From Paeniglutamicibacter psychrophenolicus (GTDB lineage: Bacteria > Actinomycetota > Actinomycetes > Actinomycetales > Micrococcaceae): 64,000 bases of DNA. Positions 11,788-25,491 of the stretch are shown piece after piece. The first letter of the stretch is position 1. Each line of letters opens with the position of its first letter. The stretch is taken from assembly GCF_030812255.1 (NCBI RefSeq), contig NZ_JAUSSH010000011.1, positions 62,001 to 126,000 of the forward strand. The letters run 5' to 3'. The notes beneath the pieces are model-generated. The model saw only the letters and a program-made list of their open reading frames with translations, was not told where the DNA came from and ran no database searches. The translations under genes were made by a program, and so were the position numbers.

Positions 11788-12915
11788 TTGAAGCGTAGCG
11801 TTAACAAGATTCCACCGTTTGCAGCGCTTTTCGCTAGTTTTGGTTCATCAAACATTCAAGAACAACCTAAAGTAGTTGATTCATTAGAGGTTGAAACTGT
11901 TTCACGTGAAACAATTTTTACCGCGGCGCCGATTCTTGATGAGAGCGAAGCCGTGGAGTTAACGGATTCCGATGGGGAGGACATAGTGGTGGCGAAGGAA
12001 CCTGCGACAGTGCGAAATGTTTTCGATACCACCGACGACAGTTCTCCATTGGCTAGCCAGCTTGCCAGCGAGCATAAGCGTCGCGAAAAGCTGAGCGGGA
12101 GGAAACTGCCGAAGCCAGACACCACCCGATACATGACGGTCAGCAATCAGAAGGGTGGCGTCGGCAAGACGACCACCACGGTGAACATCGCTGCCGCCTT
12201 GGCCATTGCGGGACTCAACGTCTTGGTGATCGATATCGATCCGCAGGGGAATGCCTCGACTGCGCTGGGTATCGAACACCATGCGGACGTAGACAGCATC
12301 TACGATGTGCTCATCAATGACATGCCGTTGTCTGATGTTGTTGCCATTTGCCCGAACATCGACAACCTAACTGTCGCGCCAGCAACGATCCACCTGGCGG
12401 GTGCCGAAATTGAGTTGGTGTCCCTGGTTGCTCGCGAGCAACGGCTTCGTCGCGCACTGGAACAATATGCCCAGTACCGGGACGCAAACGGCATGGATCG
12501 GTTGGACTATGTCTTCATTGACTGCCCGCCAAGCCTGGGACTGCTGACGGTCAATGCGTTCGTGGCAGCGCGTGAAGTCTTGATTCCAATCCAGTGTGAG
12601 TACTACGCGCTGGAGGGACTGAGCCAGCTCCTGAAGAATATCGAGATGATCCAGAAGCACTTGAACTCGGACCTAACGGTTTCGACGATTCTTCTGACCA
12701 TGTACGACGGACGGACGAACCTCGCCGCACAGGTTGCTAGCGAGGTACGTGAACACTTCCCGAACCAGGTGCTCCAAGCTGTGATTCCACGAAGCGTACG
12801 GATCTCAGAGGCTCCCAGTTACCAGCAGACCGTCATTACGTACGATTCGAGTTCCACCGGTGCCCTTTCGTATTTGGAAGCAGCCGCGGAGATTGCGGAG
12901 CGAGGCAACAGCTAG
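11788..12915 (+). CDS. parA: Chromosome partitioning ATPase ParA (Soj)
   Basis: 375 residues from a TTG start (11788) with GAGAG seven bases upstream. The first ~115 residues are a low-complexity extension. The ParA core starts at MTVSNQKGGVGKTTTTVN (deviant Walker A near 120-129) and contains DIDPQGNASTALGI and DYVFIDCPPSLGLLTVNA. ParA moves ParB-bound origins using ATP-dependent nucleoid binding. A parS site is embedded in the N-terminal coding region and encodes V-S-R-E-T. The start is uncertain; an internal GTG near 11986 is an alternative. The 5' end is AT-rich compared with its neighbours. Confidence 0.93.
   Translation: MKRSVNKIPPFAALFASFGSSNIQEQPKVVDSLEVETVSRETIFTAAPILDESEAVELTDSDGEDIVVAKEPATVRNVFDTTDDSSPLASQLASEHKRREKLSGRKLPKPDTTRYMTVSNQKGGVGKTTTTVNIAAALAIAGLNVLVIDIDPQGNASTALGIEHHADVDSIYDVLINDMPLSDVVAICPNIDNLTVAPATIHLAGAEIELVSLVAREQRLRRALEQYAQYRDANGMDRLDYVFIDCPPSLGLLTVNAFVAAREVLIPIQCEYYALEGLSQLLKNIEMIQKHLNSDLTVSTILLTMYDGRTNLAAQVASEVREHFPNQVLQAVIPRSVRISEAPSYQQTVITYDSSSTGALSYLEAAAEIAERGNS
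11898..11913. promoter_or_regulatory. parS: parS site 1 (perfect), inside parA
   Basis: Exact TGTTTCACGTGAAACA palindrome, the bacterial ParB loading site, in the N-terminal coding part of parA. Confidence 0.95.
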
Positions 12916-13204
12916 CCTTCCCGAACCGGGCAACCCAGGTTGTTCGATCGGTGGCCGGTGTTGTGATGGTTCACAGTATTGTTTAGCCAAATGTTCTCGG
13001 AATAGGTTGTTTTAATGATTCCGCGTTCTGAAACGGTTTCTAGCACGGCATACCTGTTGACCTTGGGGTTGGTTAGGGGCAGAACCATCGCTTCTCAGCG
13101 GCGGGCGAGCCACACCCGTGAGCCGCGTCCTTAACAATCAATGGCCAGCCAGTAGAATTGCCTTGGGTCAAGGTAGTAACGGTGTCGAAAAGGAGTAACA
13201 TCCA

Positions 13205-14416
13205 ATGTCGGAAAAACGACGTGGTTTAGGACGAGGTCTAGGTGCGTTGATTTCGAGCAGCCCTGTCGTTGAGACTGAGGACGAAACGCCTAAGATTGTT
13301 TCACGTGAAACATCCAAGACGAAGACCGCGAGCTCGGCGAAGACCGCGGACCTGACCGCACCAAAGCGCAAAGCGTCGGGAACTGCCCCAAGCGCCAAGA
13401 AGGCTCGTCCCGTGGACATGTTCTTTGTCCCCGGAAAGACCGAGGAAGAAGTGGCGGCCGAAAAATCTGCCTCCACAACTTCTCCGTCCGCTGCGGCAAA
13501 AAAGCGTCGCGCTCAGATGCCGGGCCTCATTGCATCCTCAGGTCGAGCAGGGGAAGTCGACGTGGTTGAACCTGTCGACAACAACCTCGTTGACGTGCCT
13601 GGTGCCAGTTTCGCTGAGATCGCCGTTGATAAGATCCACCCAAACCGCAAGCAGCCCCGTTCCTACTTCGACGAAGAACACATGGACGAATTGGTCCATT
13701 CCATTCGCGAGGTGGGGCTGCTGCAGCCAATCGTCGTGCGGCCGTCGCGAGAGAACGACAAAGAGCCCTATGAGATTGTCATGGGTGAGCGTCGCTGGCG
13801 GGCTACCCAGGCAGCCGGCCTGACCACGATTCCAGCGATTGTCCGGGAAACACAGGACGATGATCTTCTTCGTGACGCCTTGCTGGAAAACCTGCACCGT
13901 TCGCAGCTCAATCCGCTCGAAGAGGCGGCCGCCTACCAGCAGCTGCTGAGCGAGTTCTCCTGCACGCAGGAAGTACTGTCGGAGCGTATCGGTCGCTCTA
14001 GGTCCCAAATCTCCAACACCATTCGACTCATGAAGCTACCCGCTCTTGTGCAGCGCAGAGTTGCAGTAGGAGTCATCTCCGCCGGGCACGCCCGTGCTCT
14101 GCTGGGGCTGGCCGATGTGGTTGAGATTGAAAAGTTGGCTCAGCGAATCGTCAATGAGGGTATGTCGGTGCGTGCCACGGAGGAAGCCGTCGCCATGAGC
14201 GATGGTCAACAAAAACCGCGGAAGGCGGCCGCGCCAAAGCAGACGCAGCGCCACGAGCGCCTCGATTTCTTGGCAACATCACTTTCTGATCGGCTTGATA
14301 CAAATGTCAAAATCTCACTCGGGGCCCGGAAGGGTCGAGTGAGCATTGAGTTCGCCAGCGTTGACGACCTGAACCGCATCATGGGGGTTTTGTCGCCGGA
14401 AGCAGAAGCCAAGTAG
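13205..14416 (+). CDS. parB: Chromosome partitioning protein ParB (CTP-dependent clamp)
   Basis: 403 residues. ParB binds parS, hydrolyses CTP and spreads as a sliding clamp to form the partition complex at the origin. The basic N-terminus (MSEKRRGLGRGLGALI) matches ParA-stimulating tails. The ParB/Srx CTPase region is at about 140-235, with GERRWRA near 193 and ENLHRSQLNPLEEAAAYQQL. The HTH and C-terminal dimer domain follow. A parS is embedded near codon 31 and again encodes V-S-R-E-T. The 289-bp gap from parA (12916-13204) is long for this pair and may hold a separate parB promoter; nothing else is evident there. Confidence 0.96.
   Translation: MSEKRRGLGRGLGALISSSPVVETEDETPKIVSRETSKTKTASSAKTADLTAPKRKASGTAPSAKKARPVDMFFVPGKTEEEVAAEKSASTTSPSAAAKKRRAQMPGLIASSGRAGEVDVVEPVDNNLVDVPGASFAEIAVDKIHPNRKQPRSYFDEEHMDELVHSIREVGLLQPIVVRPSRENDKEPYEIVMGERRWRATQAAGLTTIPAIVRETQDDDLLRDALLENLHRSQLNPLEEAAAYQQLLSEFSCTQEVLSERIGRSRSQISNTIRLMKLPALVQRRVAVGVISAGHARALLGLADVVEIEKLAQRIVNEGMSVRATEEAVAMSDGQQKPRKAAAPKQTQRHERLDFLATSLSDRLDTNVKISLGARKGRVSIEFASVDDLNRIMGVLSPEAEAK
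13297..13312. promoter_or_regulatory. parS: parS site 2 (perfect), inside parB
   Basis: Exact TGTTTCACGTGAAACA in the N-terminal coding region of parB, read as I-V-S-R-E-T. Confidence 0.95.
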
Positions 14417-14432
14417 CCGTGGCCCTCGAACT

Positions 14433-14466
14433 AGATTGCAGTGTTTCACGTGAAACACTGCAATCT
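14433..14466. promoter_or_regulatory. parS: parS site 3 within a 34-bp perfect palindrome after parB
   Basis: The core parS (14442-14457) is extended by nine matching bases on each side, giving a 17+17 perfect palindrome 17 bases after the parB stop. It is followed by CTTGATTT. The same DNA could serve as ParB loading site and as the parB terminator hairpin. Confidence 0.9.
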
Positions 14467-14886
14467 TGATTTAACGTGGCATCCAGCTGACGTTGGCGCC
14501 GACTGGATCGATTTTGCATCCTAGTCGGCCAGTTTCCAGATAGCCGCGGCGCTCACGTGATTGTAGCCGGCGCTTTCCCTCCAAACGGGTCGTCACCTTG
14601 GCCCATGTGGGCCAGACAGACGTCTGGCCGAGGCTCGGTTCACATTCACCGTCCCGCGGGCCTTCAGCAGCGTCCTGACGCCCCTGAGGGCCCATGAGAG
14701 GGCAGGGGAGCGGCCTTGGCGGATAAGAAGCCAATGTCTGGCCAGAACTGGTCCTCTAGACACTGAGGGCTCATGGGATTGGTTACTTCGAAGCTCCTTA
14801 CTGATTCCAGAACCCGTCCTTTTGGGGAACCGCTAGCCTAGGTAGGTCTTCATAGCCTGCGATCCCTGCAAGGCACCTTAGATATC

Positions 14887-15478
14887 GTGGATATTTGCTC
14901 CTGTGGGAGCCATCGATCTTGTTTGTGGGGAACCACCCCGGAAACACAAATATTCGCCTTGGACACCACCGGTGGCCTTGCTGGGAGCCACGTTGTCGTC
15001 TGTAGATGTCCGAGCCGATGCAGTGAGCCGTCCCGCCCGTGAGACGGAAGCGTTGCCCGGGCCGGATCGATGGGCACTGCGAATTTCCGGAAGCACATAC
15101 GGCTTCCATCCTGCCGGCGATCGATGGGCTGCTCTCGGAGCGCACGGGCGAGAAGCGTCTACAAGTGCTGCCAGAGCCCATGGGGCACGCCTGCTGCTCG
15201 ACGGTGCTCTGCCCGCTGTACCTGAGGAAGGACTTGCTCCAGCAGATAGGCCCCCGGCCCCGGCATCGACGTCGGCGTGGCCATCGACAGGATCGTGCAC
15301 GACAGCATCTTGATCGGCATCTGAAGAAGCAAAGGAAGCGAGAAGATCGGTGCCGTTCAGCATGGCAGGACGTGTCGGAAGCCAGTCGCCCCCGTTCAAG
15401 CTGCCGCCGGCCACCAAACGGCAAAGTCGATGGCACCAACGGGAGTAGTGAGTGGTTCCCCGAGCGCCGAATACCCAG
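14887..15478. mobile_element. IS21-like remnant, copy A
   Basis: 592 bp that aligns by eye with 17650-18232, strongest at both ends. The left end carries the complement of repeats resembling GGTGGTCCCC...AATATT. The right end carries CAACGG-type repeats followed by GCGCCGAATACCCAG. Such multiple subterminal repeats are typical of IS21-family ends. Just before the right end a frame reads GVAIDRIVHDSILIGI, which resembles the C-terminal part of the IstB helper ATPase. No istA remains. Probably an internally deleted, decayed element; the family assignment is an inference. Confidence 0.5.
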
Positions 15479-16001
15479 ATTCCTTTTGACGCGCGGCTTC
15501 TGGGGAAGATGGCAGTATTGCTAGCGTCAATATCGTCATTGTTAGCTCCCGCGCGGTGTTCCGGTATATCCGATGTGGATCGCACCCTTGATATCGTAAA
15601 ATTCCCAAGAGCTGGTGCTGGCCCAGCCATGTTTTGGACATCGATCTGCTTGGAGGGTGCATCCATTTAGCCGACTGCGAGCAGATTCTGACAGCCGTCC
15701 AGCCGTCCAATCGCTGCAGATCGGCGTAGATCGGGTCACCGGCGTGGACTCCTGGGCCACGATTTGTCTGCAAATTTTCTGTCGATCAGGTTCATGCCAA
15801 GACGACGCATGGTGATGCACCTTTGGGTGATCGTGCGGTGGCTCGTTTTCCAGGCTGTATCACTCGAGCAGGTGTTGTACCTCGGCCACGGCGTTTTTCC
15901 TGGACCATGCTCCGGCACAAGGGCCAGAATCGGGCCGGACATCAGAATCGTTCGCAGGGCAGTAACGAGGCATGACGGCGCCTGAGAAGGAAAGTGGCCG
16001 A

Positions 16002-16343
16002 ATGACCAAGTACCTGGTCTCGTTCGACGGTGAGGCCATGACGTTCCGCGAGAAGGACTGCGACTGGGTGGTCCGCGAAGCGCATGCCGTCATAGGCGAG
16101 GCCAAGACAGCAGGCGTGTACATCTTTAGTGGTGGGATCGATGGGGACCTCGGCCCGGTGCTCGTGGCCGTCGACGGCACCGTTGCCGAGGACACACACC
16201 CTGGGCACAAGGTGCCGAACGGCGGCTAAAGCGTTCTCGACCTGTCATCGCGTGAAGCCGCACTTGAACGGGCAACCAAGATTACCGTCGCATGCCACTG
16301 CTCCCAAGAGAATCTGTGGTTCCAATACGCCCGGGCAAGCTGA
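16002..16343 (+). pseudogene. YCII-family (DGPF domain) protein, interrupted by an in-frame stop
   Basis: From the ATG at 16002 the frame reads MTKYLVSFDGEAMTF, then VVREAHAVIGEAKTAGVY, then GGIDGDLGPVLVAVDG and KVPNGG, as in YCII-related proteins. A TAA at 16227-16229 replaces the codon expected in the GG-F-T-V-L-D-L motif. The same frame then continues SVLDLSSREAALERATKITV to ACHCSQENLWFQYARAS and stops at 16343. The total of 113 codons is the family's usual length. One nonsense change explains the loss, so inactivation is probably recent. YCII genes often accompany ECF sigma factors; none is visible here. Confidence 0.75.
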
Positions 16344-16788
16344 CCGAGGTATCCTGTGTCAACGTCGGTTGTGTATCGGGTTCCAGCAATGGTCGATTGA
16401 CATCGTGGATCGGGAGAATATCCCAGAGCGACGGCATATCACCGGTCCACTCATCGATCGGCGCCAGTTCGTATTGCCTCGAGTATGCGGCTCACTCATC
16501 CAACTCCGGCTGAATTTGGGTCTCTCGAAGAACGGCGCCATCTCCGGGAACCTGGCAATGGCGTCGGTTCGCACGATACGACGGGGCCGGCAAAGAAATT
16601 CTTTGGGCCGGCTGAGGCGCCCGTGCCCGGGGGCAAGCAAAGCTGGAAGGCCTGGGCGTACATTGGCGCCAGGATCTTGAATCTTACTTCAACGCATGCA
16701 TACAGCCAGCGTCGTCAGGGGAGACGTGCCCGCAACGTAGGCATCCCGGATGATAATGCGTGGAGGATAGTCGGGTCCTGAAATCAAA

Positions 16789-16804
16789 TGTTTCACGTGA
16801 AACG
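16789..16804. promoter_or_regulatory. parS: parS site 4 (one mismatch)
   Basis: TGTTTCACGTGAAACG, differing from the consensus only in the last base, in non-coding DNA. Confidence 0.85.
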
Positions 16805-17649
16805 CAGTCTCGTGGACGCTGTGGTTGGCATGGAACCTATTACTGATTGCATGCGACCACCCTGGACCGAATGAAACCGTCAAGGGTCGAACCATACGCA
16901 GAGGTACATTCCTGGCAGGTCACGTACCCATGGAAACTGAATCAACCGATCCAATTGGTGGGGGGTGCGATTACGGACTGTAGCTCCCAAGCTTGAGATT
17001 CAGTTCGAGAACCATCAACGAAGGGAATCTGTTGGTATCGGTTCGGTTCAGGGAGGCAAGGCAGACCGTCAACATCAATCAGCAAGGTGGGAATCTGGTT
17101 CCCTCGACGAAAAAGAATCCCACAAATGTTGATTGTTAGCCGTCATGCAAGGCCCTTCGACCCGACCACAGCCTAGGCTTCCGAAATTGCGCTTTAGCCT
17201 TCATGCCCGTCGGATGGCATCTCACCGACACCAGATGTGCCATTGGCGAGGAGGTATCCGTGCGCTACCGCGCCCTTGGGCGAACCGACAACCGGTTCGC
17301 TGAGTTTGAGGTTCCTCGGAACCGCTCCATTGGCGGACCCCTTCTTTTCGACTGCCGAGAAGAATGGGACACACCCAGAGTGTCAACCGATCGAAGAGTT
17401 GCTCGGTGAAGAGCGTCTGCACGAAATCGGGGCTGCCAACGACGTGGACGTCTTCGTGCCAGTCACGCAGTCCATGTACAACTTCACGGACATCTGGTCC
17501 GAGCACAGTCGAATTGTGCCAGGCGAGGATCGGTGTCTGGCGGGGGGCCACGTACGTCGGAACACGGTTGAGCGATTACGCGGTGTTCCCGTCCTACCGA
17601 CACCAGTACGAGGCGGAACTGTCGTAGGTCCGACGCCCATGTAGAGGGC

Positions 17650-18232
17650 ATGAATATTTGACTGCGTGGGGACCAGTAATATTGCGCGTGGAGACCACCG
17701 GGGAAAACCCGAATATTGTCCGTGGGAGCCACCAGTGGCATTGTCGGGAGCCGCTTTGCCGGCAGGCTGGTGGGTTCCGCGTCGTAAGCAGGTCCTGTCA
17801 GGACCGGTCGCCCCTAGAGGCTGCAGGGCACTGCCAACGACGGGAAGTGCACGGCGGACTCCGTCCTCCCGGCGATAGCGGAGCCGTTGCTCGGGACCCT
17901 GCCGGGAAGCGTGTCCGTAGGCGGCCCGCACCCAGGGAACGCCGCCGACGTCGGGCCCTGCATGTCCTGCACACTGCGTCTGCAGAAGGGTCGGCACCGG
18001 CGGCCCGGCTCCGGTGTCCACGCAGAGGATTGTCATGGACCGGGACGTCCACCACGCCATCCGGATCTGTGTAGGAATGCACACGTGAGGCTAGATGATC
18101 GGCTCCGTCCAGAATCAGGTGGAACCCGTTGGAGACCGGTGGCTCCCACGCGGGGAGGTACTAGTCCTCAACGGCAATATCAGTGGCCCCCAACGGCAAT
18201 AATGGGTGGTCCCCAAAGCGTCGAATACTCAG
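17650..18232. mobile_element. IS21-like remnant, copy B
   Basis: 583 bp related to 14887-15478. The left end has AATATT-containing repeats (complement of GGTGGTCTCC-type units). The right end has tandem CAACGGCAATA units separated by GTGGCCCCC and GGGTGGTCCCC, ending GCGTCGAATACTCAG, which aligns with copy A. The interior shares a patch around CCGGCGAT with copy A but has no open transposase frame. It is separated from copy A by about 2.2 kb containing the YCII pseudogene and a parS. Confidence 0.5.
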
Positions 18233-20213
18233 GCATCCACTTCCGTCAAACCGGAACCCACCCGTTCGTCGACGACCTCGTGCCCGAGGATCTGCCAACG
18301 GCCGATCACAGGCCGTCATCGGCCATCTGGTTCCTGCGCAACCGTGACAAGAGCGACGGTGTCCCATGCCGCGCTCCTTACCAATCGCCCCTCGTCGCTC
18401 AGGCGGCGGAATCACATTGAGGGCGGCACAGCTATTCGTGCCGTGCAGCGGGTTTCGACGGAGGGAATCGACCACACCCACCGTCGTCCGAAATTTCATC
18501 GGGCGGTCGCGGCAACAGCCCTTCCCGAAGAAGAGACAAAAGATCGGAAATCGCTCGATAGTTTCGACGTGGGTGCAGAACTATGTTTGGAAGTCGGCAG
18601 GCCGTAAAGACCCGCAAGACGCCCAGGGGAAGCAGCTAATCCGCGTTCCTGGACGTTCGTCAGTTGGAGGTGAGCGGATCGGAACCCATGATTCTTTTCG
18701 CTCAAACGGTTCGGTCGATCTGGACAATGTTGTGAAAGCTGAACACGAGAAACCGGTGACCTGGGGGAGACGCGGCCATTGATGTTTGGGCCACCGATAT
18801 TGGTGCGAGGTCCAGTAATCCTCAACAAGGGATTTTCACGGGCAGACATTGATTCCCTCCATTCCCGAACAGGTCTCCTCTGTAGCCAGATTTAGCTGTG
18901 GACGTTCGGGACCATGAACGCGTCGACATGGCTGCCAACGTGTAGCCGCTGCAGGCCGTCCGTCTGCGCGTACAGTCTGCAGGACGCCGCCGAAGTCGGT
19001 CAGTGGCGTCTTCTCCAGCCTCGCGCAGCCGATGGAGCGAATGTCCGATGGGAAGGCGCTTAGGGCTACCCCTGACGTACCCTCGCAATATGTATGAGAG
19101 GCAGCGTGGATGTCGTCCGAGAGCGCCGCGGGCGGCTCCCAAGAACGACAGACAAGCACGGCGCACTCTATGCCCACCTAACTGGGCAGGGAATGCATCC
19201 CGCCGAAGCGCTGCGAGCCGCCGTCGGCGAGGACCAATGAGCAGACGCGATCGTCGGAGAAAAATCAGATCGCGATGATGACGGAACATTGGTGCAGGGA
19301 ACGTCGATCCCGGAAGACCTCGTTCATGAAGGGAGGTGAACCGGCAACCGGCGTCGCTGTGGATGGAATCGGGTGCACGAGGCAGGACTATGACTGTCCT
19401 TCCCAAATGCCTCAGCTTAGAATCACCGGAAGTACCACTAAGGGCGTGTCCGCGTGGAGTCTCGGACGGGGCAACGAGGCCTGCCTTGGGCGCGGTGTCG
19501 ACAAGGGCAGTGCGGGTGGCACCCACAAAGGAAGCATTGTTGCGGGCCGTTGGAACCGCGGGCTGGATGTTTGTGGGACCAAACTTCAACCGGACTTGAT
19601 GGGATGACATCCCGAGCGTGAACCAATATATCGGTTCAGGATTCCATCTCTTCGCTGGAGCAATCGATCGTCAGTGCCGTACCAATTGCGAAACACTCAG
19701 GACGGGGATGAAACATGAATCGAAGTGAGGCTTCCAGACGCAACGAAGAACTTCTCTTGACTAGGGACCCGCCGGTCACTGGCGTGAGAGTCCGCCGGAT
19801 TTCCCGCACCTCGCACCTCGTTTCCGCTCAGGGATCACCTGTACCGATGCCCATTTCCCTGAACTGGCCTTCGCGGGGCAGAAATTGAAGCGCATTCGGC
19901 CACGGGGTACATCTGAGTTCCAGGCACTCGACATGCTCCGCCCGACCAACGAGAAGACGGGGGAAGCCGATCGCCCCGTCTATCCATTCGGACGATCGGG
20001 GACTATTGGAGAAATGCTTTGCACCCGCATCTCGACGCAGAGGAGTGGAGGATTCCCGCTTGGTGCGGTCCTCTTCATGACCGGACCGTAGTGCGCGCGG
20101 CTGCAGAATACGAAGGTGAAGAACCAGGCTCAGCGCACTCAGGGATTCCGAACAACGGGCCTTCTAATCCGCAGGCAAGCCGACGAGGCTGGTTCCACCC
20201 CGGAGAGGAAACA

Positions 20214-20393
20214 ATGAACGCGGAGGTGCGCCAGTGGGTTCCTCAGATCAGTAAACCTACCCCCGCCGCCACAGCCGGTCGGATTGATTCGGCAACCAGG
20301 AATGCTCTTCGGGATGACTCAACATTCGAATCTTCACCCGCGAATGTTTCACGTGAAACGTCGGCGAATGCGGCTAGCCCTCCTTCAGCCTGA
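20214..20393 (+). CDS. Doubtful small ORF containing a parS-encoded VSRET
   Basis: 59 codons from an ATG at 20214 preceded by GGAGAGGAAACA, a fair ribosome-binding site. The product (MNAEVRQWVPQISKPTPAAT, ending PANVSRETSANAASPPSA) matches no family I know. The near-parS at 20345 is read in the same frame as in parA and parB, giving V-S-R-E-T. It could be a remnant of a gene start carrying parS, or chance. Confidence 0.2.
   Translation: MNAEVRQWVPQISKPTPAATAGRIDSATRNALRDDSTFESSPANVSRETSANAASPPSA
20345..20360. promoter_or_regulatory. parS: parS site 5 (one mismatch)
   Basis: TGTTTCACGTGAAACG, 71 bp from the next perfect parS. Confidence 0.85.
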
Positions 20394-20431
20394 AGATGAA
20401 TACGGCGGGGATCGCGGCGGGGCCTCAAAAA

Positions 20432-20447
20432 TGTTTCACGTGAAACA
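20432..20447. promoter_or_regulatory. parS: parS site 6 (perfect)
   Basis: Exact TGTTTCACGTGAAACA, 16 bp before the left end of the inserted IS. Confidence 0.95.
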
Positions 20448-20463
20448 GGCAGGCGTAGTCACC

Positions 20464-21758
20464 CAGGGCGACTGCAAAGTCGCTAGCGTGAGCCGATTCC
20501 TACCATTTTGAGGATCTTGCCGGGGTGGTTTCTCAGGTGCCGCGTGGTCCTGGCGAGGTTCTTGTGGCCCTGGTTCTTGAGCAGGGTGATGGCGATGTTT
20601 CTGAGGATCGCCAGTGTTCGTGGTGTTTGGCCGTTTCTGGCTTGCAGTTTGTCCTCTTGGAAAAGGACATCCCGACGCCAGTGCAGGCCGTTTTCTATGC
20701 CCCAGTGGCCGCGGACCCAACCCGCCAGCTGCCCCGGGCTGGCCTGGTATGTCGGTAGGGACGTCACCGCATAAACGGTTTCCAGGTGCCACTTCCCGGC
20801 GCCGACCGGCCGGGACTTGCGGGTGATCCGCATGGCCTGGAGTGCATGGGGGAACCTGATGCCCGGGCTGAGGGTGGCGCATTTGATGGTGCGGATGATC
20901 TGCCGGCCGTTCGCTTTCGCCGAGCTCTTGTCCCCGTCGGGAACGCGGCCCCACGGGACGGTGGAGAGCTGCTCGAGCAAGGTCGGCTGGTTCGCTTTCA
21001 CGGTGAAAATATAGTGTGCCCCGCGTTCGGCCAGATAGCGTGCGTGGCCGGCCTGGGTGTGCATGGCGTCGGCGGTGACAACGACCCCGGACAGCGACGT
21101 GAAGTGGTCCATGAGCACCGGGAACTGCGGGATCTCGTTGCTTTTCTCGCCGACCGCCACCTGGCCCAGCACCGCGTGGGTGTCCTGGTCGATCGCCGAG
21201 AGCAGGTGGACCCGGCTTCCCTTGCCGTTCTTTGCCCCGCGCATTTCCTTGCCGTCCACGGCAATGGCCACCGGCCGTCCCAGGCCCTGGGCCCAGTCAC
21301 CGGCCAGCAGGTCGAAGGCGTCGGAATCCAGGCGTTCCAGCACCCGCGCCAAGGTCGTCGCGTGCGGGGTTCCGATCCCGCAGGCGGCCAGCTCTGTCCT
21401 GGCGGTGTCGGCGGCCCACTCGGCCATTTCCACCAGCGTCTTCGCGCCGACGAGAACCGAGCAGACCATGATCAGGAGCAGGTGCGCGAATTGGTGGCGG
21501 ACCCCGCGCCTGGCGCGGGGATCCGGAAGGCCGGCCAACGCCACCAGCACGCAGCCGGGATCAAGGACGACCGGCTCGGATGTGGAAAATTGGTCAACAA
21601 AGGCCTGCAGGTGGGAAGATTGCACGAAGGAACTCCTGGTGAAACATGTGGGCTGATATTCACATGCTTACTAGGAGTTCCTGCCCTTTAAAAGCTGGGA
21701 CCGGTTTGTCTCATATTTTAAGACTGGTGGGCTCGTTCACGACTTTGCAGTCGCCCTG
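20464..21758 (-). mobile_element. Intact ISAs1-type insertion sequence
   Basis: 1295-bp element with 19-bp perfect terminal inverted repeats (20464-20482 and 21740-21758, starting CAGGGCGACTGCAAAGTCG). It is flanked by identical 10-bp target duplications, CGTAGTCACC, at 20454-20463 and 21759-21768. One transposase gene fills it. Perfect ends and duplications imply a recent insertion. Removing it would bring parS sites 6 and 7 to within about 70 bp of each other. Confidence 0.93.
20483..21625 (-). CDS. ISAs1-family DDE transposase
   Basis: 380-residue transposase, full length for the family. It has the N-terminal RRGVRHQFAHLLLIMVCSVL region, DDE residues in IAVDGKEMRGAKNGKG (D), VVVTADAMHTQ (D) and GHWGIENGLHWRRDV (E), and a basic C-terminus. 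GTG start at 21623-21625 with AGGAG seven bases upstream. The stop codon abuts the terminal inverted repeat. The frame is intact, so the element may still be active. Confidence 0.93.
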   Translation of the reverse strand: MQSSHLQAFVDQFSTSEPVVLDPGCVLVALAGLPDPRARRGVRHQFAHLLLIMVCSVLVGAKTLVEMAEWAADTARTELAACGIGTPHATTLARVLERLDSDAFDLLAGDWAQGLGRPVAIAVDGKEMRGAKNGKGSRVHLLSAIDQDTHAVLGQVAVGEKSNEIPQFPVLMDHFTSLSGVVVTADAMHTQAGHARYLAERGAHYIFTVKANQPTLLEQLSTVPWGRVPDGDKSSAKANGRQIIRTIKCATLSPGIRFPHALQAMRITRKSRPVGAGKWHLETVYAVTSLPTYQASPGQLAGWVRGHWGIENGLHWRRDVLFQEDKLQARNGQTPRTLAILRNIAITLLKNQGHKNLARTTRHLRNHPGKILKMVGIGSR

Positions 21759-21815
21759 CGTAGTCACCCCGGATTATCACGACAACACTCGACTCTTCTC
21801 AAGCTACGGTGAGCT

Positions 21816-21831
21816 TGTTTCACGTGAAACA
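21816..21831. promoter_or_regulatory. parS: parS site 7 (perfect)
   Basis: Exact TGTTTCACGTGAAACA, 58 bp after the right end of the IS. The following 2.2 kb (21832-24078) contain no gene I can support. Confidence 0.95.
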
Positions 21832-24078
21832 ACAGGGTCATTTCAAGAACGTCGGCCTGAGAGTCCCCTGCCGACTGGGGGATCCTGCTCGAATCGTGTC
21901 ATGCGCCCATGGCGACAATGGCGCGGCTCCGGTGGCTCTGGCAAACAATTGCCTGTGGCCTCTCGTCCGGGAGTTCCGGGTGATTGCCTTTCGACCAATG
22001 ACGCACCCCCGCAAACGGAGGCCTCGCTTGCCGCGCAGCCGCAGACTCGCCCGTCAGCTGCGCCCGGTTTGACTTGAAGACACGTCTAAGACCGCACCCA
22101 GAGGAGGCACGAAGACGGTTCGTGGCGTCACGGGGAGACGGAGCCGGAAGGAGAAATCATGAAAGTGCGAAGTCTTGCAGTCGCGGATGCCCACCACAAA
22201 AGAAATCCAGGATAGTGGGATAGCTGCCGCGGAAGCTGGCTGTGCCAGGACGAATACAGGATACTTCGAAGGGTCAATGGCGCGACATTGTCACCAGTGG
22301 CCACCCGTGGCGGCGGAAGCCGTGACCATCAGGACTCGAAGTCCTTGCCCTGATGGTGGAGGTCGATTGCCTTTCCTCGACCGCGTGACACCCGGGGGGG
22401 GTGGAGAATCTGGCCGGTGGTTTGGATGAAAAGTTGGCCGCCCGGCGGTTGGCCAGGGCCCGGGGACAATGAGCATCGTCCAGTGGCCGAAGGGCTCAGG
22501 CAGTGCGAAGGCGGGATGCCTGGACCGACCCCGGTTCGGCCGTGGACCCATGTTGGGCAAGTGTTCGCCGGCCTGCGCCGGGAACCACTGCTGCCTGAAG
22601 CATGATGCCGCTCCGGCATTGCAAAAAATAGGGCCGGTGCCGGGGATGCCGGACCGACGGGCACGGCGCCTATCTTGCCCGTTGGCGCCGCTCTGGGCGT
22701 TCGAGGCGGCCGCAGCAGCGGTCGACAGCCGACGAGCCGGTGACATTCACGTAACAGGCGTGGAAGGGGCGCACCTGCCCGCCTCCGGCGGCCACGACAC
22801 CGCTGGACGGGGTGGAACACACTTTTCACTTGCCTGAGGTGTGGTGGCTGATTGGTCCCTCCCGGAAGCTGTCCCGCAAAATTTGTAGCCCGAGGAACGG
22901 CACTGCAGATTTGTCAGCCTCGGTGGTTCCCGGCTACGCAATATCAGTCGAAGAACTGGGGCCAAAGATGGGGTTGCGGTGGCTATGCGCACGCGATGAT
23001 CGTGGACCGGATCTTCTGCAAAAGGTTTGGAATCAAACCAGGAACCGGCAACATGGCGAGATGGCCTGCCCGGGCTTCTGCTGGTAGTTGGAACTCGGCC
23101 CGGACAACGGTTCCCTGCAGCGGAGGTGCTTGCTTCCAATGGCAATATCCCCAATGGGAAGTTCCCTCGAAGCCAACGATTACGCGCTCAAGGAGACCGG
23201 ACATTCACGGGTTCGTCCCTGAGCAATGGGCGGAGGACATGCGCTCCGTGAACGACCCCGGCGCAAATCATCCACGCGCAGCGAGGACCCGAAACCATGC
23301 GGAAGGCGTCTAAGGGTGGGAGGGTCTCGTGGTCGGGCCGATTCGGCGACCTGGCGATCGGGTAGCCTGGCCCAGAAAACATCACCGGAAGACGGCAGCG
23401 CCCGAAGTCGTTGAATGCACCCGGCACCACATCGTCGGTGTTGGAATTTTCGGTCATGGTCTTTGGCCCGAAGACGCCGGTCAATGAAGAAATGGTTGGT
23501 GTGGGACAGACCGGATGGTGATGATCATGGCACGTACATCGGCACCGTGAGCATGGATCATGCTTGTCCTTGAAAAGTAGAGGCATCTGGCGAGACAAGA
23601 ACGGACCGGCTGCGCCCGGGAGCAAGGCCTTGTCGATTCACGGGTATCCAGCTCTGGCTGCGGCACAAATTCGTGATGGACCCGTCCGTTGATCTCACTC
23701 ACAGCGGATAGCCGACCCTGCGGACGTTGGAAAAATTGCTCCGCACCTCGAATTGGAACGAAACGGAGCCAGTACTGCCGCTAGCGAAAGCCGGGCCTTC
23801 GATTCGGAGCCCGGTTAAGTGGGAGTATCAAATACTCCCGAAGTAGACGGCTCGCCTGCGTTCCGTTCATCCTCTGGCGCCTTTCAACTGAGAAGCAACG
23901 CATCAGCATCCATCGTGGTCGCAATTGGCCTCGATCGTGAAAGATAACGGTGAAAGCTTGAATTTTTCGAAAACATGCTGGTAAACAAATGATTTTATTT
24001 GTTTAGAGTTCCAACTTGTTCCAGTGTCTATCGTTGGCGAGCATAAATTCACCCTGGTGGGAGGTAGGGCGTTAAAAA

Positions 24079-24117
24079 GCTCGGTGCAGCCATCCCGAAG
24101 GAGTGGCTGCACCGAGC
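24079..24117 (-). terminator. Intrinsic terminator after trxA
   Basis: 14-bp perfect stem (24079-24092 with 24104-24117), 11-base loop, followed on the minus strand by TTTTTAACG. It lies 21 bases after the trxA stop. Confidence 0.9.
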
Positions 24118-24137
24118 GGACGGAAAAGTCGCGAACC

Positions 24138-24461
24138 TTACAGGAAGGCAGCGAATTCCTTTTCAAGGACAGGCTTCGGCTTGGCGCCGATCGAGGTGGC
24201 AACGTGCTCGCCGCCCTGGAAGACGTAGACGGCCGGGATGCTGGTGATGCCATACTTGGCGGCGATGGCCGGGTTGTCATCGACGTTGATCTTGACGACG
24301 TCGATCTTCTCGGCGTGCTCCGCGGCGATCTGCTCGAGGATCGGGGTCAGCTGGCGGCACGGTCCGCACCACTCTGCCCAGAAATCGACGATGACCGGCT
24401 TGGTGGCCTCAAGGACCTCAGCCTGGAAAGTTGCGTCGGTGACGTCTTTGGTCTGGCTCAT
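24138..24461 (-). CDS. trxA: Thioredoxin
   Basis: 107-residue cytoplasmic thioredoxin with the active site WAEWCGPCRQL (Cys32 and Cys35), which reduces protein disulfides and is recycled by TrxB. The start is the ATG at 24459-24461 with AAAGG eight bases upstream; a GTG three codons earlier is possible. It follows trxB by 46 bp on the minus strand, as in mycobacteria (trxB2-trxC), and ends in a strong terminator. Confidence 0.97.
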   Translation of the reverse strand: MSQTKDVTDATFQAEVLEATKPVIVDFWAEWCGPCRQLTPILEQIAAEHAEKIDVVKINVDDNPAIAAKYGITSIPAVYVFQGGEHVATSIGAKPKPVLEKEFAAFL

Positions 24462-24507
24462 GGCCTGCACCTTTCGTTAAGGTTCTCTTCCCCCTGCTGG
24501 GGAAAAA

Positions 24508-25491
24508 TTAGTTGGAGACTGAAACTGCGTTTGCGGTTGCCGCGGCTTCGACATCGGCAAGGTAGTGCTCGACGTCGAGGGCGGCGGCGCATCCCGAACC
24601 GGCAGCCGTGATGGCCTGGCGGTAGGAGGCGTCGATGACGTCGCCCGCGGCGAAGACGCCCGGCAGGCTGGTCTTCGAGGTGCGGCCGTCAACGGCGATC
24701 GTGCCCTCGGCGGTCAGGTCGAGGACGTCCTTGACGAGGTCGGTGCGCGGGTCGTTGCCGATGGCGACAAACATGCCGGTGACGGCGACTTCCTGCTCCG
24801 CACCGGTCTTCAAGTTGCGCAGCGACATGGCGGTGACCTTCTCGGCGCCCGAGATGCCGACGACCTCGGAGTCCCAGATGAACTCAATCTTCGGGTGTGC
24901 CAGGGCACGGTCTGCCATGATCTTCGAGGCACGCAGGGAATCTCGGCGGTGCACCACGGTGACCTTGGAAGCGAACTTCGTCAGGAAGAGGGCTTCCTCC
25001 ATGGCCGAGTCGCCGCCGCCGATGACGGCGATTTCCTGGTCGCGGAAGAAGAAACCGTCGCAGGTCGCGCACCAGGACACGCCGTGGCCGGCCAGGCGCT
25101 TCTCGTCGGGGAGCCCGAGCTCGCGGTAGGCGGAGCCGGTGGACAGGATCACGGCGTGGGCGCGGTACACGGTGCCGTCGCCCAGGGTGACGACCTTGAC
25201 GTCGCCGGCCAGTTCGACGGCGGTGACGTCGTCAAAGAGGATCTCGGCGCCGAAGCGCTCGGCCTGCTTCTGCATGTTGTCCATCAGGTCCGGGCCCATG
25301 ATGCCCTCGGGGAAGCCCGGGAAGTTTTCCACGTCGGTGGTGTTCATGAGCTCGCCGCCGGCGGTTACCGAACCGGCAATGACCAGGGGCTTCATGTTGG
25401 CGCGAGCCGTGTAGACCGCAGCGGTGTAGCCCGCGGGGCCGGAACCGATGATAATGACGTTGCGGATGGCGTCTTGTGCTTCTGTGGCCAC
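24508..25491 (-). CDS. trxB: Thioredoxin reductase
   Basis: 327-residue FAD/NADPH disulfide reductase that regenerates reduced thioredoxin. It has the FAD-binding motif [15 protein letters not shown] near the N-terminus and the redox site WCATCDG near residues 141-147. The NADPH motif [12 protein letters not shown] and the second FAD motif VFAAGDVID follow. The start is GTG (25489-25491). It lies 109 bp after the pseudokinase-like gene and is probably co-transcribed with trxA. Confidence 0.97.

Follow-up and report, generated by a model that had tools for sequence, protein, structure and literature searches.

A parS array beside parAB

What holds seven copies of the partition site parS in and beside a long, mostly non-coding interval next to parAB, and does the interval itself contribute anything to chromosome segregation? 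The question is raised by a stretch of 64,000 nucleotides from Paeniglutamicibacter psychrophenolicus (contig NZ_JAUSSH010000011.1, positions 62,001 to 126,000; hereafter the window), in which a reading made from the sequence alone had picked out seven parS or near-parS sites. We consider it likely that these sites are the chromosomal centromere of a ParABS system in a mostly non-coding setting, with the parS directly after parB probably serving also as the core of the parAB terminator, and the interval between parB and trxA, which we call the desert, as an untranscribed platform.

All seven sites lie where the sequence-only reading had placed them (Table 1), and nothing else in the window matches the 16-bp consensus with up to three mismatches; five copies are perfect and two carry one mismatch. 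A shuffled window is expected to hold 0.09 such matches, and none of 100 shuffles held seven or more. A scan of the whole assembly (4.57 Mb, 35 contigs) allowing two mismatches revealed no second cluster, the only places beyond the array being C2:638686 (the symmetric GGTTTCACGTGAAACC; G000, L008) and C4:207037, both on other contigs. No perfect or one-mismatch parS occurs outside the array in these 4.57 Mb, and the reversed pattern, used as a control over the whole assembly, gave no place with two mismatches or fewer. With only two further near-sites genome-wide, the array is the sole parS cluster of the genome, and the shuffles together with the genome scan rule out chance matches as the origin of the seven sites.

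Two sites lie within parA and parB (those at 11898 and 13297, respectively) and five outside genes, after parB, as had been claimed. The count of four in the gene-poor tract holds as well, and becomes five if the site at 14442, 26 bp past the parB stop, is included. Mechanically called open reading frames (ORFs) overlap the sites at 20345 and 21816, where the coding score is well under the range of genes. The array begins 3.7 kb and ends 13.7 kb from the dnaA start. Copies of the 16-bp parS consensus, clustered near the origin beside parA and parB, are what is expected of a chromosomal centromere. The encoded ParB has the features of a cognate binding protein, namely, the parS-reading helix-turn-helix domain HTH_ParB and the CTP-clamp motifs GERR and ENLHR. 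Its sequence matches solved ParB/Spo0J/Noc chains, and the nearest ParB among the named records compared, a set that may omit those closest to this genome, is that of Paeniglutamicibacter sulfureus (86%).

The same layout recurs throughout the genus. parS is present in 15 of 15 genus genomes, and all 14 genomes with a parAB contig have one site in parA, one in parB (the latter with mismatches in G002, G003, G011, G012, and G013), and one 24 to 31 bp past the parB stop. A distal doublet or triplet with a spacing of 66 to 88 bp is found in 12 of the 13 genomes in which that end was sampled, including the triplet of this genome, now split by an insertion sequence (IS); G002 has a single distal site. 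The distal-end sample leaves out G012, and G011 and G014 end at contig breaks. Eight other genomes carry parB and trxB on one contig, at distances of 7.2 to 17.6 kb.

Fixed sites in drifting DNA

The tract was aligned between this genome and three collinear relatives (G007, G005, and G009, the contig of the last stopping before trxA). All five parS sites of the tract are identical in the four genomes, including the odd last base of the sites at 16789 and 20345, whereas only 5 of 4778 gap-free 16-column windows without parS overlap are invariant in the same genomes. Five of the seven longest invariant runs are parS, and the invariant runs at 20345 and 20432 coincide with the 16-mer precisely, at both ends. 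Elsewhere the tract drifts: 60% of the fully aligned columns are unchanged, and the identity of the interval to the three relatives is 0.90, 0.71, and 0.70, against 0.92, 0.79, and 0.78 at four-fold degenerate positions of parA, parB, and trxB together (G009 without trxB) and 0.90, 0.73, and 0.72 at those of parB alone. Since the identity of the tract is about equal to or lower than that at four-fold degenerate positions, the DNA between the sites appears close to unconstrained.

The invariance of the sites amid this drift supports the view that they are conserved by selection. The sequence-only reading had gone further, proposing that selection keeps the tract as an origin-proximal centromere. 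That proposal is supported for the sites, whose array is unique and lies beside parAB near dnaA, and finds no support for the tract as such, which drifts at about the synonymous rate. What relatives have in common is limited to the sites, the order in which they lie, and an interval that is long and mostly non-coding. As a separate observation, two invariant runs that are not parS (17 and 18 bp) lie at 17579-17639; they are single copy and are present in four genus genomes only.

A mostly non-coding interval common in the Micrococcaceae

The median codon score of the tract without its IS is -0.25, compared with 0.24 for the genes at 30 to 64 kb and -0.36 for the tract after mononucleotide shuffling; as an exception, one 300-bp window near 15962 scores 0.12. 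The training set of the score consisted of ORFs from this window, including mutually overlapping ones, and its fit to other genera is poorer. Pfam gave no match for seven large mechanical ORFs that lie within the tract or overlap it (minus-strand proteins being searched without their first residue), Rfam at gathering scores returned no structured RNA family between 8 and 28 kb, and no tRNA was detected in the window. In most genomes of the genus, the fraction of interval windows with a coding signal is 0.00 to 0.22; it is higher in G001 (in one part), G002, G004, and G013, and mobile elements explain at least part of the excess in G004 and G013.

The sequence-only reading held that everything around the sites has decayed, a wording that points to dead genes. 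The interval is mostly non-coding throughout the genus and in much of the family, and transposons are the only recognisable gene remains that we found in it. An origin of the tract from decayed genes was rejected on the lack of Pfam matches and on a score far under that of genes. Since the score is slightly above that of the shuffled tract, it is possible that very old remnants of other genes persist.

Among 80 named loci, 69 could be scored for the parB-trxA interval. We labelled a locus as having a desert if the interval was at least 1.5 kb long, its coding fraction did not exceed 0.35, and it contained at least two parS, thresholds that were set after seeing the data. The label applies to 36 of the 69 loci, all of them Micrococcaceae, with 2 to 12 parS each; the bearers are Arthrobacter, Pseudarthrobacter, Paenarthrobacter, Glutamicibacter, Sinomonas, Tersicoccus, and some Rothia, along with L025, which belongs to the genus set of the window. 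Of the 33 loci without a desert, 15 show a short gap and 18 an interval that contains genes, and zero to two parS fall within it. Desert loci average 1.5 parS upstream (over the 6 kb that end with the parB stop) and 6.5 within the interval; the corresponding means are 4.9 and 1.0 for the 11 Micrococcaceae that lack a desert, and 4.1 and 0.1 for 21 loci from other families (L080 left out of these means). Where a desert exists, it thus contains most of the sites; where none exists, the sites lie mostly in the upstream genes. The density of the array, which had been called high, does not stand out in the family, in which as many as 11 parS, each perfect or with one mismatch, occur within 5.2 kb (L065).

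On a quick ParA+ParB tree with open forks, from which L080 was omitted as it has no parA, the desert label requires five changes, so that gains and losses probably both occur. One locus in this set, L102 (Kocuria sp. cx-455), carries the taxonomy label Acidobacteriota, yet its ParA and ParB group with those of Micrococcaceae, which is probably a labelling error.

Does the desert do anything beyond holding the sites? Under a neutral account, to which we give an even chance, selection acts only on the 16-bp sites, and the remainder is filler, fed by transposons and slowly lost between two operon ends, where an insertion does no damage; its length and lack of genes have no function. The gene arrangement provides the setting for it: trxA and trxB are on the strand opposite to parAB, and since the two operons are convergent, the desert falls between their ends. 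The drift described above, at about or beyond the synonymous rate, speaks for this account, as do the parB-trxA gaps of several Micrococcaceae (63 to 784 bp). A short gap is found in Rothia mucilaginosa, Pseudoglutamicibacter, Psychromicrobium, and others, from which it follows that ParABS can do without a desert, a point against the platform that we favour.

Mobile elements also speak for the neutral account. A 581-bp element in the desert, for which G007 has an empty site, shares its ends with a 2.57-kb element of G013 whose ORFs hit rve/Mu-transpos_C_2 and IstB_IS21. The latter element (G013:C1:3048587-3051161, L112) is IS21-type, with IstA- and IstB-like ORFs as in autonomous members of the IS21 family, and itself lies in a parB-trxB interval; three more pairs of such ends occur elsewhere in that genome. 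No IstA/IstB-type gene was found among the ORFs of the 581-bp element itself. An interpretation of this repeat as an RNA or a centromeric repeat was dropped once it was recognised as a non-autonomous IS21-type element. A second element, an IS of 1295 bp, is bordered by a 10-bp target duplication, CGTAGTCACC, at 20454-20463 and 21759-21768. The last two parS sites are 1384 bp apart here and 80 bp apart in G007, which is without the IS; their present distance results from its insertion between members of the distal triplet, and their former closeness had escaped the sequence-only reading. Among the matches listed (up to 40 or 27 per genome in several genomes), 10 of the 25 other matches to the 581-bp element of at least 250 bp lie in parB-trxB intervals (a hand count, with one match in G014 unplaced). 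Counting the query, the IS has 6 full-length copies, 3 of which lie in such intervals, and these intervals make up well under 1% of each genome. As the queries were chosen for being in a desert, this enrichment is somewhat overstated. Insertions in the desert are either harmless or drawn there.

The neutral account fits less well with the rarity of long non-coding DNA: when G007 was sampled at even spacing in 20 stretches of 20 kb, coding signal was absent for at most 1.7 kb at a time, compared with 4.8 kb in the tract of that genome, where 90% of the windows are non-coding. It also leaves unaccounted for that the interval is both mostly non-coding and parS-bearing in as many as 36 named loci, and that the sites shift from upstream genes into the interval wherever a desert exists. 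Our preferred reading includes the desert as a probable platform.

A parS site within a terminator-like hairpin

The parS closest to the parB stop is enclosed by a 34-bp palindrome, which the sequence-only reading had missed. The corresponding RNA hairpin has a predicted folding energy of -22.8 kcal/mol (z = -5.77), and the post-parB hairpins of three relatives have z scores of -3.5 to -6.1, whereas the six other parS of the window fold about like their own shuffles (z = -0.86 to 0.32). We examined 92 loci, comprising 14 genus genomes and 78 named loci (L024 and L025 being dropped as identical to G012 and G008), and counted a site as palindromic if at least 5 complementary bp lie directly outside the 16-mer and as post-parB if it lies at most 80 bp past the parB stop. 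There are 48 post-parB sites, in 47 loci, and 39 of the 48 are palindromic, a tally to which the genus contributes 14 of 14 genomes and the named loci 25 of 78. Such arms flank only 16 of 540 other parS (9 of 290 downstream and 7 of 250 upstream). A stable hairpin just past the last gene of the operon, as expected of a terminator, is hence present in 39 of the 92 loci.

The arms covary, as those of a terminator hairpin should. In the 14 genus genomes, their sequences vary by species yet stay complementary, and pairing over the 39 palindromes averages 9.85 bp, falling to 0.70 bp if the arms of different genomes are exchanged. Every arm position from 1 to 10 shows all four Watson-Crick pair types, and at positions 6 to 10, where pairing is not forced by the way the sites were selected, 34, 32, 29, 28, and 23 of 36 distinct arms are Watson-Crick paired. 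The arms also have a polarity, the 5' arm being G/A-rich and the 3' arm C/T-rich (A-T versus T-A pairs, 84:15 at positions 7 to 15). The T fraction past the stem is 0.48, compared with an A fraction of 0.28 ahead of it, so that a T-rich tail is enriched over the group. Such strand polarity fits an RNA terminator, whereas a DNA palindrome for ParB would need none. The post-parB palindrome is most likely an intrinsic terminator of parAB with parS as its core, to judge from these sequence features.

Several observations weigh against this interpretation. In the window, the tail of the hairpin, TTGATTTA, is a weak U run, and a terminator scan did not list the hairpin; the counts from the promoter and terminator scan of the window were in general similar to those from shuffles. 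Forty-five of the 92 loci have no parS within 80 bp after parB. Among the 17 desert loci without a post-parB parS, a plain hairpin of 12 bp or more occupies this place in 4 (L036, L040, L058, and L081; a T run follows in three), which speaks for a terminator there. Of the remaining loci, however, 4 show a stem of only 6 to 7 bp and 9 no perfect stem of at least 6 bp within 110 bp of parB, which means that a hairpin after parB is not universal in deserts. The arrangement seen here was present in 1 of 40 genomes sampled across the class (out of 77 with a ParB match), and outside the family, Flexivirga (L087) alone among the named loci reaches the palindrome threshold.

The arms might instead act as DNA, either by lengthening the palindrome and thereby strengthening ParB binding or by forming a cruciform. 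The palindromes are, after all, perfect and centred on parS, their arms are free in sequence yet complementary, and some deserts lack a hairpin after parB. Against this, such arms are rare around other parS, their position directly past parB is fixed, and they are strand-asymmetric and followed by a T-rich tail. Moreover, the first arm position that is not Watson-Crick paired is G-T in 12 of 36 arms, where 6 are expected from the mismatch types, which fits RNA. We consider a role of the arms as DNA improbable and retain the terminator as the preferred interpretation.

Two further hairpins are worth recording. In L040 (Arthrobacter sp. AFG7.2), a 12-bp terminator-like hairpin with a T run lies approximately 19 to 45 bp past the parB stop, and its core, GGTTCACGGTGAACC, resembles a worn parS; it is possible, from its sequence, that this hairpin is an intermediate between a parS-terminator and a plain terminator. 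In G008, a mid-desert parS (L110:9938-9953) has 8 complementary bp on each side and forms a second terminator-like palindrome, away from parB.

Neighbouring genes and coordinates

The gene order across the locus is gyrB, DUF721, recF, dnaN, dnaA, yidC, jag, rsmG, parA, parB, the interval of about 9.7 kb, trxA, and trxB. Pfam matches back dnaA, yidC, jag, rsmG, parA, parB, trxA, and the transposase, whereas gyrB, DUF721, recF, and dnaN are names that we assume from the look of the sequences.

Table 1. Features of the array, the desert, and their borders (window coordinates)
Feature	Coordinates	Strand	Remarks
dnaA	6684..8153	-	Pfam Bac_DnaA; landmark on the origin side
parA	11788..12915	+	Pfam AAA_31/CbiA; Walker A KGGVGKT; start codon uncertain
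parS 1	11898..11913		Perfect; inside parA; in 14/14 genus genomes with fetched parA, one mismatch in G011
parB	13205..14416	+	Pfam ParB_N, HTH_ParB, ParB_C; motifs GERR, ENLHR
parS 2	13297..13312		Perfect; inside parB; in 14/14 genus genomes, 1-2 mismatches in five
Desert	14417..24137		Between convergent parB and trxA; basis: coding score and Pfam, Rfam, and tRNA negatives
34-bp palindrome enclosing parS 3	14433..14466	+	Terminator-like hairpin at the 3' end of parAB
parS 3	14442..14457		Perfect; begins 26 bp beyond the parB stop codon
Older, diverged relative of the 581-bp element	14888..15477		One stretch of G005 matches both 14888-15477 and 17651-18231 (blastn)
parS 4	16789..16804		One mismatch, TGTTTCACGTGAAACG; invariant in four genomes, variant base included
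581-bp non-autonomous IS21-type element	17651..18231		Direct repeat GGCA at 17647-17650 and 18232-18235
parS 5	20345..20360		One mismatch, TGTTTCACGTGAAACG; first of distal triplet
parS 6	20432..20447		Perfect; second of distal triplet
IS element	20464..21758	-	Transposase ORF 20483-21625; Pfam DDE_Tnp_1, DDE_Tnp_1_assoc
parS 7	21816..21831		Perfect; third of distal triplet
trxA	24138..24470	-	Pfam Thioredoxin; distal border of the desert
trxB	24508..25491	-	Reading frame, presumably trxB; best homologues in 14 other genus genomes are 80-99% identical

A model for the desert and what it implies

Excerpts of published work describe ParB as loading at parS and redistributing to about 15 kb away (PMC9242446), by CTP-dependent sliding (PMC7053999, PMC8367383), and condensin as being loaded at the parS cluster of Corynebacterium glutamicum (PMC7083940). 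By analogy, ParB would load at the parS sites of the window and spread along the DNA, ParA would move the resulting complex, and condensin would probably be loaded at the array too. The anatomy of the locus suggests that transcription of parAB stops at the first parS of the desert, in which case an element that loads ParB would also end transcription at the desert edge. The kilobases that follow would then be little transcribed apart from the IS, and ParB could spread over them from up to five loading sites, so that the desert may act as an untranscribed platform for loading and spreading.

This model could be carried further, by seeing in the Micrococcaceae desert a bacterial counterpart of the pericentromere: a kilobase-scale tract without genes, and probably without transcription, that is kept beside parAB and sealed on one side by the parS-terminator, in which ParB clamps and condensin avoid RNA polymerase and which tolerates transposons and drift like eukaryotic centromeric DNA. 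We put this forward tentatively and think it rather doubtful. As for the sites themselves, we can discount almost entirely that they are copies spread by duplication or by mobile elements and without current selection, since, in spite of the mobile elements among them, the flanks of the seven sites are dissimilar outside the 16 bp, a self-comparison of the tract shows no repeat linking two sites, and the sites are invariant although just 60% of the fully aligned columns are unchanged.

A family with and without a desert offers natural pairs of relatives in which to see if ParB spreading and condensin loading are limited by transcription, and the IS between parS 6 and parS 7 amounts to a natural spacing mutant. 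The putative parS-terminator would combine a segregation site and a transcription stop in a single short element, the two being apparently maintained together by complementary change.

Comparison with known systems

The centromere of a bacterium usually consists of a few 16-bp sites located within genes or short gaps. As in C. glutamicum, to the extent that excerpts of PMC7083940 describe it, the window has many 16-bp parS in one origin-proximal cluster and mostly between genes (9 of 10 there). In contrast, the ten sites of C. glutamicum span 35 kb and lie 73 kb from oriC, whereas the seven sites here are confined to 9.9 kb next to parAB, and a single, mostly non-coding interval of 9.7 kb contains five of them. 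The Mycobacterium parABS system shares with the window its consensus and the location of sites near parA and parB; one parS there overlaps a promoter, a precedent for a parS on a transcription signal (PMC2346475, in part). Unlike the array described here, that system has only two sites, both of which precede parB and lie within parA or at a promoter, and the excerpts of PMC2346475 mention none after parB or in a terminator.

In the open-licence literature, among the titles and abstract beginnings of the best-ranked results, we found no description of a parS inside a terminator or of a comparable desert. The type of centromere is already known; the desert as a family trait and the parS-terminator constitute an apparently new setting for it, as judged from the literature searched.

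Intrinsic (Rho-independent) terminators are GC-rich hairpins located right after an operon, with asymmetric arms and a T-rich tail. The post-parB hairpin shares the GC-rich stem, the place directly past the operon, and the asymmetric arms; its tail is T-rich over the group as a whole but only a weak U run in this genome. It differs in that a conserved protein-binding site makes up its loop and upper stem.

The plasmids with the parS and sopC centromeres are P1 and F. As excerpts of PMC2346475 describe them, these centromeres lie downstream of the partition genes, and the array of the window resembles them in having centromere sites directly past a parB-type gene. It departs from them in being chromosomal, in extending over kilobases, and in having one of its sites fused to a terminator-like hairpin.

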